Positions 60,833-64,000 of a stretch of 64,000 bases of DNA are shown piece by piece. Position numbers and translations under genes: made by a program. Origin of the DNA: Candidatus Gastranaerophilales bacterium (GTDB lineage Bacteria; Cyanobacteriota; Vampirovibrionia; Gastranaerophilales; Gastranaerophilaceae); the NCBI GenBank assembly GCA_944324435.1, contig CALUWH010000010.1:1-64000 (forward strand), given 5' to 3'. Every line of letters begins with the position of its first letter. Position 1 is the first letter of the stretch. Below the pieces are notes generated by a model. The model was not told the origin of the DNA. It worked only from the letters and a program-made list of their open reading frames with translations, and did not search any database.

Positions 60833-62809
60833 ATGCCAAATGAAGATGATAAAAAAATAACCGCCGAGTTCGAGTTAACAATAAAGGATGAAGAAACTCC
60901 GGTAACCGGCAATGCGGTATCTGCATCAGTATATATGGTAGACGATTATGAAATACAAGTAGAAGTGCCAGATATCGATGAAAGTATAGACTCTTCAGAT
61001 ATGCATGATTCATCTGAACAAGAAAGTGATGAACCTCAGACTAGAAACTTATATTTCCAGGTAAGCGATTACATTAAATTACCCAGTGTATTAGAAGGTT
61101 TAAGGACTGTATATAATGGATCCGACAAATCGGCTTCGGATGCATATCAGTCCTTGAAGTCATACATTGAAGATAACAAAGGTAATCCAGAAGCTATAAA
61201 CAACATAATATCTTCGTTGCTTGGAGACATAAGGACGTATTATGACCGTGACACAGAGCTCAAAGAAGTAGGACAATCGCAGGAAGAAATTCTTGACAAG
61301 ATTTTATCTGTTCAAAATGGCGAAGATATAAGCGGCTTGATTTGTACAACAATCCATGAGTTTGCAATGAAAACACTCAATGACTGCGGTATGGAAGCGG
61401 TTTTAATATATGGCATCTCTAACCAAGGTGGGCATGCAGGACTTTTATACAAAAATACAGACGGCAAATACGTTTTCAACAATTATGATACAAGTTTAGT
61501 TATAGAATCAAATAGTTTGAAAGACGCAGCAGCTTTTGTTTACAAGAACTCCGGAGGTCTGGGGAGCCGCGGATATTACTCTTTTGTAAACGGCAAAGTC
61601 TCTTATCAGGAATTTGCTCTTGAACAGGAATCTGCTTTTGGCGAAAAAATGGATAAAAGCGATTACAATTTCACAACTCCTACTGATATTGCAGATATTT
61701 CAAGAAATTCTTCAATAAAAGGACGTGTATCTATCAGCACTACAGGTAACTTAACGGCCGGTGCAGACGCAGTTATCGTAAAAAATCCGGATAGTAACGC
61801 AGAGTTTCGTGTATCTGCAGAATATAAACATAATAATGAAACCGCTCTTATGAATAACTCACAGAGTTTTGGTGTAGACGCTGGTTACAGCAAAAGAAAA
61901 AGAAATGGTACGTACTTTGATGTAAATACAATAGTCGCACACACCTCAAGTTCTGATATGCCAACAGCAGAATACAGTGCATTTACACCTAACCAAGATG
62001 CTGTAAACAAAATGTTTGAAGAAATTGGAGAGGAGCTTGGCTCAAAAAATCTTTATACTAATGAAGTCCGTGAATATCTAAACTCTCTTAGAGATTCTTA
62101 TTTAGATAAACATCCAACTTTAAAAGGCTATATGAGCTTGGACAAAGTGTCATATCTTTCCTCTTTTATAAAAACAACTATAGGAAATGAAGGTACGTTT
62201 TTAGAATCCGATAAAATGAGCTTGAAGAATAGGGTTCAGGCAACATTTATGGGTGGAATGACTTTTGAATTGCAATCTTCATCAACTTTGCCGGATGCCA
62301 GATTTATTGCAGAGGATGAGCTTCGCTTAAATAATAAGACAGGAAATTTTGTTTTTAATAACTCTATTAATGCCGGACTGGGCGCTGATTTAAGAATTAC
62401 AAGCGGTGATCAAAAACCTGGCTTATCTCCGGTGGTTAAACTAAATGCGTCTACAGGTGCAGGGTACAACGCTTCTGATTTTGCAATTCAAGCCGGCGCA
62501 GAAGCATACGGAGTTGTTACACGTCCCTCCAAAGAATTCGGTATACGAGGAGGAATTTCCGCACAATATAAACCCGAAAATTCTAATGTCACATTCTATG
62601 GCAATGCCCGAACTACTTTTGAAACACAAAATCTTACAATAGGCGGTTTCAACGAACAGACAGAAAATAAACTTACTTTCGATGCACTTATTGGAGCTCA
62701 GGTAAACTCCAGAACTAATATTTATGCCGGATATACCAAAGAAATTAACAAGCTTAACCCCACAAAAAATATCTCTATGTTCAATGTTGGACTTAAATTA
62801 AATTTTTAA
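60833..62809 (+). CDS. Transglutaminase-like domain joined to a beta-barrel-type C-terminus
   Basis: A 658-residue protein. After an acidic lead (1-70) there is a transglutaminase-like core: Cys171 (LICTTIHEFAMKTL), His201 (GGHAGLLY) and Asp219 (NNYDTS) in the right order, with GMEAVLIYG between. From about 290 on the protein is made of alternating, aromatic beta strands and ends in FNVGLKLNF, like an outer-membrane barrel signal. Yet no signal peptide is present and the AAGGAG leaves no room for one. Asn- and Ser-rich. No known family fits the whole. Confidence 0.75.
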   Translation: MPNEDDKKITAEFELTIKDEETPVTGNAVSASVYMVDDYEIQVEVPDIDESIDSSDMHDSSEQESDEPQTRNLYFQVSDYIKLPSVLEGLRTVYNGSDKSASDAYQSLKSYIEDNKGNPEAINNIISSLLGDIRTYYDRDTELKEVGQSQEEILDKILSVQNGEDISGLICTTIHEFAMKTLNDCGMEAVLIYGISNQGGHAGLLYKNTDGKYVFNNYDTSLVIESNSLKDAAAFVYKNSGGLGSRGYYSFVNGKVSYQEFALEQESAFGEKMDKSDYNFTTPTDIADISRNSSIKGRVSISTTGNLTAGADAVIVKNPDSNAEFRVSAEYKHNNETALMNNSQSFGVDAGYSKRKRNGTYFDVNTIVAHTSSSDMPTAEYSAFTPNQDAVNKMFEEIGEELGSKNLYTNEVREYLNSLRDSYLDKHPTLKGYMSLDKVSYLSSFIKTTIGNEGTFLESDKMSLKNRVQATFMGGMTFELQSSSTLPDARFIAEDELRLNNKTGNFVFNNSINAGLGADLRITSGDQKPGLSPVVKLNASTGAGYNASDFAIQAGAEAYGVVTRPSKEFGIRGGISAQYKPENSNVTFYGNARTTFETQNLTIGGFNEQTENKLTFDALIGAQVNSRTNIYAGYTKEINKLNPTKNISMFNVGLKLNF

Positions 62810-63462: not shown

Positions 63463-63534
63463 AGCGGTATCGTCTAGTGGTTAGGACGGGAGATTCTCAT
63501 TCTCCAAACAGGGGTTCAATTCCCCTTACCGCCG
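63463..63534 (+). tRNA. tRNA-Glu (anticodon CTC)
   Basis: A 72-base cloverleaf: D stem GTCT/GGAC, anticodon stem GGAGA/TCTCC with loop TTCTCAT (anticodon CTC, reads GAG), and T stem AGGGG/CCCCT. The acceptor pairs GCGGTA with TACCGC, but the first pair is A-C where G-C is expected. The discriminator is G and CCA is not encoded. TATAAT at 63428-63433 inside the previous gene could be its own promoter. Confidence 0.92.
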
Positions 63535-63560
63535 CTTACTTTTTCTGTAGAAAAAGTAAG
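63535..63560. other. Perfect inverted repeat right after the tRNA
   Basis: CTTACTTTTTCT and AGAAAAAGTAAG form a 12-bp stem with a 2-base centre directly after the tRNA discriminator base. No T-tract follows; it may end transcription or mark the start of the tandem array. In the later array copies the left arm is degraded. Confidence 0.7.
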
Positions 63561-64000
63561 CAAAAAGACTTTCCTCATTATGTCGTCAGACATTGATAAA
63601 ACCACTAGCTTTAATTATGCCGCCAAGTCTGACTCAATTGTCAGACTCCCGAACTTTCTTTTGTATTATGGCAAATGAGCTCCACTTTACCGCCATCTAT
63701 TCTTTTGCAGAAAAAGTAAGCAAAAAGACTTTCCTCATTATGTCGTCAGACATTGGTAAAACCACTAGCTTTAATTACGCCGCCAAGTCTGACTCAATTG
63801 TCAGATTCCCGAACTTTCTTTTGTATTATGGCAAATGAGCTCCACTTTACCGCCATCTATTCTTTTGCAGAAAAAGTAAGCAAAAAGACTTTTCTCGTTA
63901 TGTCGTCAGACATTGGTAAAAACCACTAGCTTTAATTACGCCGCCAAGTCTGACTCAATTGTCAGATTCCCGAACTTTCTTTTTGTGTATTACGACAAAT
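63551..64000 (+). repeat. 160-bp tandem repeat array anchored at the tRNA 3' end
   Basis: AAAAAGTAAG recurs at 63551, 63711 and 63871, a constant 160-bp period, so about 2.8 units are visible and the array runs out of the window. Copies are almost identical. Each carries GTCTGACTCAATTGTCAGA (hairpin) and ends in CTTTACCGCC, a copy of the tRNA acceptor 3' strand, before the next AGAAAAAGTAAG. No gene is seen; the reading frame at 63593 is only the repeat itself. Confidence 0.93.

Follow-up and report, generated by a model that had tools for sequence, protein, structure and literature searches.

We analyzed a stretch of 64,000 nucleotides (hereafter the window), which forms the first part of contig C10 of a Candidatus Gastranaerophilales genome, from a gut bacterium with a distant kinship to cyanobacteria. 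Near the 3' end of the window lies the gene of tRNA-Glu(CTC), and it is followed by an array in which a 160-bp unit is present about 2.9 times. The features of the locus are as follows.

63463..63535, + strand: tRNA-Glu(CTC), the host gene of the array (called by ARAGORN; match to RF00005 at C10:63463-63534)
63524..63533, + strand: CCTTACCGCC, the 3' strand of the tRNA and the source of the tail copies (read from the sequence; a single occurrence in the window)
63534..63693, + strand: unit 1, 160 bp, made up of a hairpin, a second conserved hairpin, a left remnant and a tail copy
63534..63561, + strand: perfect hairpin GCTTACTTTTTCTGTAGAAAAAGTAAGC, directly 3' of tRNA-Glu
63585..63633, + strand: second conserved stretch GTCAGAC..GTCTGAC with complementary ends, common to relatives (read from the sequence and from the alignment with genomes G011 and G027)
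63685..63694, + strand: tail copy 1, CTTTACCGCC, identical to the tRNA at 9 of 10 positions
63694..63853, + strand: unit 2, 160 bp
63845..63854, + strand: tail copy 2, CTTTACCGCC
63854..64000, continuing to about C10:64003, + strand: unit 3, partial
Beyond the window, 3' of unit 3, + strand: a remnant of the P2 hairpin to C10:64038, then the first 23 nt of the insert E at C10:64039-64061 (P2 and E are described below)

TRF reported the array at 63549-63983 with a period of 160, 2.7 copies, 97% matches and 0% indels (score 826), and ARAGORN called the tRNA. The tandem array that the original prediction had placed behind tRNA-Glu is thus real. Units 1 and 2 are identical at 154 of 160 positions. 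The prediction had also described a strict 160-bp period and a tail copy at the end of every unit. The spacing between units 1 and 2 is indeed 160, but that of the next step is 160 or 161 because of small insertions in unit 3. Likewise, CTTTACCGCC was found twice in the window and closes units 1 and 2 only, whereas the third unit enters other sequence. Past position 64000, where the prediction had proposed to look for further units and an integrase, the array stops near C10:64003, and the contig, 64604 in length, carries tRNA-Asn at C10:64259-64330, about 260 bp past the array end. No Pfam integrase was found in the single ORF of more than 80 aa beyond the array or among the 13 proteins from ORFs of the window at 52-64 kb.

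An 81-aa ORF runs across the units, but it has no Pfam match and a period of 160 bp cannot hold a frame, so we rejected a protein-coding repeat. A dispersed repeat was also ruled out, since the search of this genome with the 160-bp unit gave no further copies: besides the three units and inverted self-matches, all matches had E-values of 0.04 or worse. Two other objects were seen in the window. One is a CTCAACT-rich tandem repeat at 105-368, with periods of 79 and 88 bp by TRF; the other is a 658-aa protein without a Pfam match at 60833-62809, two genes upstream of the array.

The hairpin GCTTACTTTTTCTGTAGAAAAAGTAAGC runs into A's and is therefore no + strand terminator in the terminator scan. 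The same scan gave no terminator-like site in positions 400-1500 of the array locus L003, which include both tRNAs. Since no such site lies between tRNA-Glu and the array, the units may be transcribed as a tRNA trailer.

We compared the tails of the tRNAs of this genome with the 600 nt downstream of each. A tail copy of at least 12 of 14 nt was present at 4 of the 35 testable tRNAs; internal and shuffled 14-mers gave 0. The value for tRNA-Glu was 10 of 14, one above its own control and below the cut of 12. Therefore, the tail copy in the window is by itself weak evidence, and the relatives carry the case. The idea that the repeat was seeded on the tRNA 3' end was borne out in this way: CCTTACCGCC recurs as CTTTACCGCC, and the modules of the relatives make the case.

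Matches to the 160-bp unit were found in 20 of 57 genomes including this one, and all 20 belong to the genus of the window, from which 34 genomes were searched. Some of the matching loci with a called tRNA lie behind tRNA-Glu, and others near tRNA-Arg or tRNA-Gly. The units behind the same tRNA-Glu in G011 and G027 can be aligned with the window unit. That is, the left 100 nt are alike, and then P2 and E stand where the window unit has a gap; in G027 and in the first G011 module, the P2 hairpin continues into E and the tail ATTCCCCTTACCGCC. P2 and E are missing from units 1 and 2 of the window, and the last partial unit retains the P2 remnant and 23 nt of E. We therefore regard the window array as a shrunken form of the module. 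Units 1 and 2 also lack the inverted left arm and the GA opposed to the T-loop GA, and R1, our model of E, gave no convincing match in the window (best E-value 0.55) or in L003.

The complete module of the relatives consists of an inverted copy of the acceptor and T-arm strand, a variable hairpin, GGTTCGA (the 5' half of the T-arm), the insert E of about 90 nt, and the tail copy of the tRNA. E starts about 70-105 nt behind the tRNA. It sits inside the copied T-loop, and the tail copy is the tRNA's own 3' end from the T-loop on. The motif CGMRYGARCAAGA marks the 3' end of E. This motif occurs 5 times in the forward and 0 times in the reversed form in this genome; the corresponding counts are 15 and 0 in G009, 12 and 0 in G005, and 1 and 6 in G056, which lies outside the order.

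With the exact motif pattern, which leaves variants outside the pattern uncollected, 185 distinct E sites were obtained in the fetched loci. We kept the 166 sites with CGTT before the motif and dropped the 19 without it. At 64 of the 166 sites, E is directly followed by a tail copy of at least 12 nt from an ARAGORN tRNA not more than 1.5 kb upstream, and these tRNAs represent 25 isoacceptors. As for the other 102 sites, no tRNA was called at 78, the tRNA gave no match at 15, and the match was of 9-11 nt only at 9. The sites without a called tRNA include contig starts, apparent island ends and positions not near tRNAs. When the sequence itself was compared, at least 12 nt after E recurred within 600 nt upstream at 78 of 145 sites. 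Control stretches 60, 100 and 140 nt farther on recurred at 21 of 143, 15 of 140 and 6 of 138 sites, and these values are above zero because some arrays continue. In a second set, 14 of 26 E sites carried the tail of a tRNA not more than 700 nt upstream. Twenty regions, hand-picked among the matches listed and mostly on long contigs, were also collected. The tail copies in relatives reach 18-20 nt. In G039 (8 contigs) and G044 (3 contigs), which belong to another family of the order, the module lies at tRNA-Asp with equal spacing.

E is a genuine structured element. Its outer stem, GYGARYGAGC/GCGARYGARC, contains two tandem G·A motifs, which were invariant in all 40 aligned sequences. These 40 came from 89 non-redundant E sequences; 28 of 140 E had been excluded for length, and they resemble E with a shorter inner hairpin and stay outside the counts. 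In the alignment, 97.5% of the cells were paired, 146 cells were double changes as compared with 46 after shuffling, and the covariation score was 0.487 against 0.145 for shuffled sequences and at most 0.131 when the partner was slid. Relatedness can inflate such covariation counts, but the same pairs switch among several types. The 5' arm was found at 140 of the 166 sites, the remaining 26 having no recognisable 5' arm, and at the variable pairs of the outer stem 540 of 560 cells were Watson-Crick, the mean of 2000 shuffles being 405 and the maximum 438. Some modules have a plain paired stem instead of the G·A stem (GGTTTGC/GCAAACC, GACCTGT/ACAGGTC).

As a single strand, the module would be a three-way junction, in which P1 pairs the left arm with the tail, P2 is GAACCC/GGGTTC, P3 is E, and GA faces GA between P1 and P2. 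P2 was perfect at 37 of the 81 sites having TTC before E, and 54 of 135 sites had no TTC. At 27 of these 37 perfect sites, GA stands in the left strand in place of the TC expected of a plain inverted T-arm. An earlier test of the left arm in free register gave a small excess (5.39 against 4.82, maximum 5.05; 80 of 135 sites) and was repeated in fixed register, where P1 paired with its own tail at 3.97 of 5 positions as compared with 3.32 (maximum 3.68). In minimum-energy folds of three modules, one of them from E. coli, P1 and P2 formed in 3 of 3, the left GA was unpaired in 3 of 3 and the right GA in 2 of 3; the G·A stem of E was not obtained in these folds.

We also considered a T-loop intron. 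When the flanks are joined, 70 of the 166 sites yield a rebuilt tRNA, yet 69 of them have an intact tRNA upstream. The tails are therefore extra copies and not exons, and the intron was rejected. At the remaining rebuilt site (L118), there was a single cut, which lies close to a contig end.

The one exception, a single interrupted gene among the sites seen, is L315 (G005:C14:38857-39066). There, an E-type module interrupts the T-loop of tRNA-Val(TAC), of which no second close copy was found in G005, so that nt 1-60 are followed by nt 58-76 about 130 nt on; other matches to tRNA-Val(TAC) in G005 are tRNA-Ala, tRNA-Val(GAC) or partial. It may be a real split gene, an assembly error, or a case with an intact second copy in a gap. 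Inserts other than E were also seen at the T-loop place. By eye, L120, L022, L023 and L163 and, in this genome, L073 contain a second insert family, in which a AAAACGTGACATTTAGTCACCTTTTG-like hairpin precedes CGGCAGAGTC or a similar sequence ahead of the tail. A further insert type, with the ends GGATTTGC..GCAAATCC followed by AAGACA, was seen in L087, at tRNA-Leu(GAG) of this genome, and in L302. In L056, 3' of tRNA-Lys(TTT), an E module stands between two degenerate near-full tRNA copies.

E is distributed within the order. R1 matched 64 of the 65 genus members searched, 3 of 4 further genomes of the family, 14 of 22 further ones of the order and none of 24 from other orders or beyond, with up to 32 copies per genome. 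In a search of 386 genomes of the phylum, 151 matched, all in the family or order of the window; the stricter filters of this search lost weak matches (G075, for example, had one earlier and none here), and 215 misses are of uncertain kinship. Among the matches listed, many contig titles with the E motif are of Gastranaerophilales or Melainabacteria, and two contigs labelled Fusobacterium and Acinetobacter are taken as misnamed MAGs. This genome has 11 R1 matches elsewhere than in the array (E-values up to 0.01). Three are on contig C35 behind a truncated tRNA-Lys 3' half, in an array of about 307 bp x 3 at the contig start; others lie at the tails of tRNA-Lys(TTT), tRNA-Arg(CCT) and tRNA-Gly, the last at the start of a contig. 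On C43, one match has a tail-like sequence with no tRNA called, and four weaker matches (31-44 bits) have no tRNA tail. A virus-borne E was rejected, as viral_contigs held 0 exact matches to the E motif. The Rfam search of the tested loci, five of them with E, gave only tRNAs and chance-level matches, the E family being absent. Nothing on the E-module family or on rtT was found in a literature search outside which most subscription journals lie.

E also occurs at places besides T-loops. By eye, it was seen behind terminators, at the end of a 5S rRNA, within REP-like palindromes and in stacks. In one case, in L302, a reversed E sits within another insert, which belongs to the second family and lies at a tail of tRNA-Glu. 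Moreover, tRNA-Val(TAC) has no E module in this genome and three different ones in three relatives. This turnover of E between sites and species favors a small mobile element with a preference for hairpin loops. As a separate observation, E-like elements form head-to-tail stacks, with the junction AAGACA|GC, downstream of T-rich sequence that resembles a terminator in L147, L155, L110, L111 and L294, and such stacks lie, for example, near flagellin-like and enoyl reductase-like genes (named by eye).

We think that the window array is probably a degenerate tRNA-tail module that was duplicated in tandem. It would belong to a family of modules found across the order, in which E would be a small mobile structured element. 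E may be a short non-autonomous element that settles in hairpin loops, above all in the T-loops of tail copies. The near-identical duplicated tails would then offer homology, and unequal recombination or slippage could multiply or shrink the units, deleting E as in the window. The original prediction had named slippage as one possible source of the array, and the extra units are indeed most simply traced to tandem duplication, in which tail copies slip or recombine unequally. The units may be transcribed as the trailer of the tRNA precursor and then released from it, as in E. coli rtT.

Other explanations must be weighed against this one. The module might be kept for its RNA, which would form the three-way junction and function as a small RNA or in the processing of tRNAs; the window array would then be a degenerate relic or a simpler version. 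The RNA-like covariation and the invariant tandem G·A pairs of E agree with such a role, as do the folding energy of the window unit, which is better than that of shuffles (z -5.0), the stretch from tRNA-Glu to the array without a terminator-like site, and the occurrence of this junction in E. coli, whose rttR carries a small-RNA annotation. However, in many relatives a terminator-like hairpin lies, by eye, between tRNA and module, E is found away from tRNAs and reversed, and the presence of a module at a given tRNA varies between species. We consider this explanation unlikely; a selected trailer RNA would rely on the structure described above. That the array or its copy number was made by the assembler is far more remote and hardly credible: the units differ by substitutions, the contig extends 600 bp beyond the array, and six modules in relatives lie inside contigs of 443-852 kb, one of them in a 3-contig genome. 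What speaks for it is an assembly of 50 contigs in which a contig end lies within 60 nt 3' of 6 of the 42 tRNAs and within the same distance 5' of 1. Repeats behind tRNAs therefore seem to disturb assembly; the tRNA-tail modules may account for the contig breaks just 3' of tRNA genes in this assembly, and the copy number of the array may be collapsed.

The modules might also be relics of attachment sites, if islands had repeatedly integrated and been lost, leaving short remnants flanked by copies of the att core (T-loop to 3' end), in which E settled later. The tail begins in the T-loop, which is a classical crossover position for integration in tRNA genes. Modules adjoin truncated tRNA 3' halves in L249, L260, L271 and contig C35 of this genome, and some such halves look by eye like island ends. 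Behind tRNA-Lys(CTT) of this genome, at a distance of about 240 nt, there is a Phage_integrase gene (L055 on contig C27; the C35 locus is L089). Island integration thus contributes at least near modules in this genome. In contrast, no integrase match lies beside the present array, and a single insert family with fixed spacing is found behind 25 isoacceptors; moreover, we know of no attachment-site feature like the inverted left arm with GA. The first two of these points tell against the att-like relic of one integrase at tRNA-Glu that the prediction had suggested, and we judge the general form of the explanation improbable.

The preferred reading, a module family with a mobile E, can be compared with known systems. 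Like REP/BIME and MITE, E is short, structured, dispersed and non-coding, but it differs in its branched-internal-loop fold, its tandem G·A pairs and its strong preference for the T-loops of tRNA tails. Attachment sites of islands and phages in tRNA genes are used by tyrosine recombinases with crossover in the T-loop. They likewise have an identity block from the T-loop to the tRNA 3' end, and some modules adjoin such sites. In contrast, the module units are of 160-310 bp without an integrase gene, with one shared insert at many tRNAs and an inverted arm.

The closest counterpart is the array of tyrT/tyrV repeats of E. coli (RtT RNA, RF00391; rttR), which likewise stands in tandem behind a tRNA (178 bp x 3.1 copies). 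The rtT array of E. coli was already known in the late 1970s. Its RNA is released from the trailer of the tRNA precursor, and a role in tRNA processing or as a small RNA has been proposed; to our knowledge, no role has been accepted. At tyrV, the 3' end of tRNA-Tyr, starting in the T-loop, is copied exactly over 19 nt at the close of three units; in the window array, the tail copy agrees at 9 of 10 nt and closes two of three units. The E. coli unit is composed of an inverted left arm GGGGAAGGAT, GA, GAA..GGTTC, GA or GG, a structured insert and ATCCTTCCCC, which is the plan of the Gastranaerophilales module. The insert itself differs, as R1 had no match at the tyrV locus. Conversely, RF00391 had no match in this genome (E-values up to 10; the E. 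coli control was over the cut-off) or on L003 and six other loci (E-values up to 1). Judged by anatomy as read from the sequence, the Gastranaerophilales module is of the same kind as E. coli rtT, and the likeness covers architecture, not sequence.

We tentatively put forward, as a possibility short of an even chance, that bacteria in general have a class of T-loop junction modules, structured elements that copy the local tRNA 3' half, are closed by the inverted GA/GA arm and carry exchangeable structured inserts, with rtT, E and at least two other inserts as instances. Such modules might be kept by a mobile system that targets hairpin loops or by a tRNA-trailer RNA system. Among the sources seen, the E. 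coli repeat belongs to one tRNA, as compared with 25 isoacceptors in Gastranaerophilales. With the same junction behind so many tRNAs, the oddity of E. coli rtT becomes a set of many natural replicates, and these allow a direct test of whether the units are RNAs, mobile elements or by-products of recombination.
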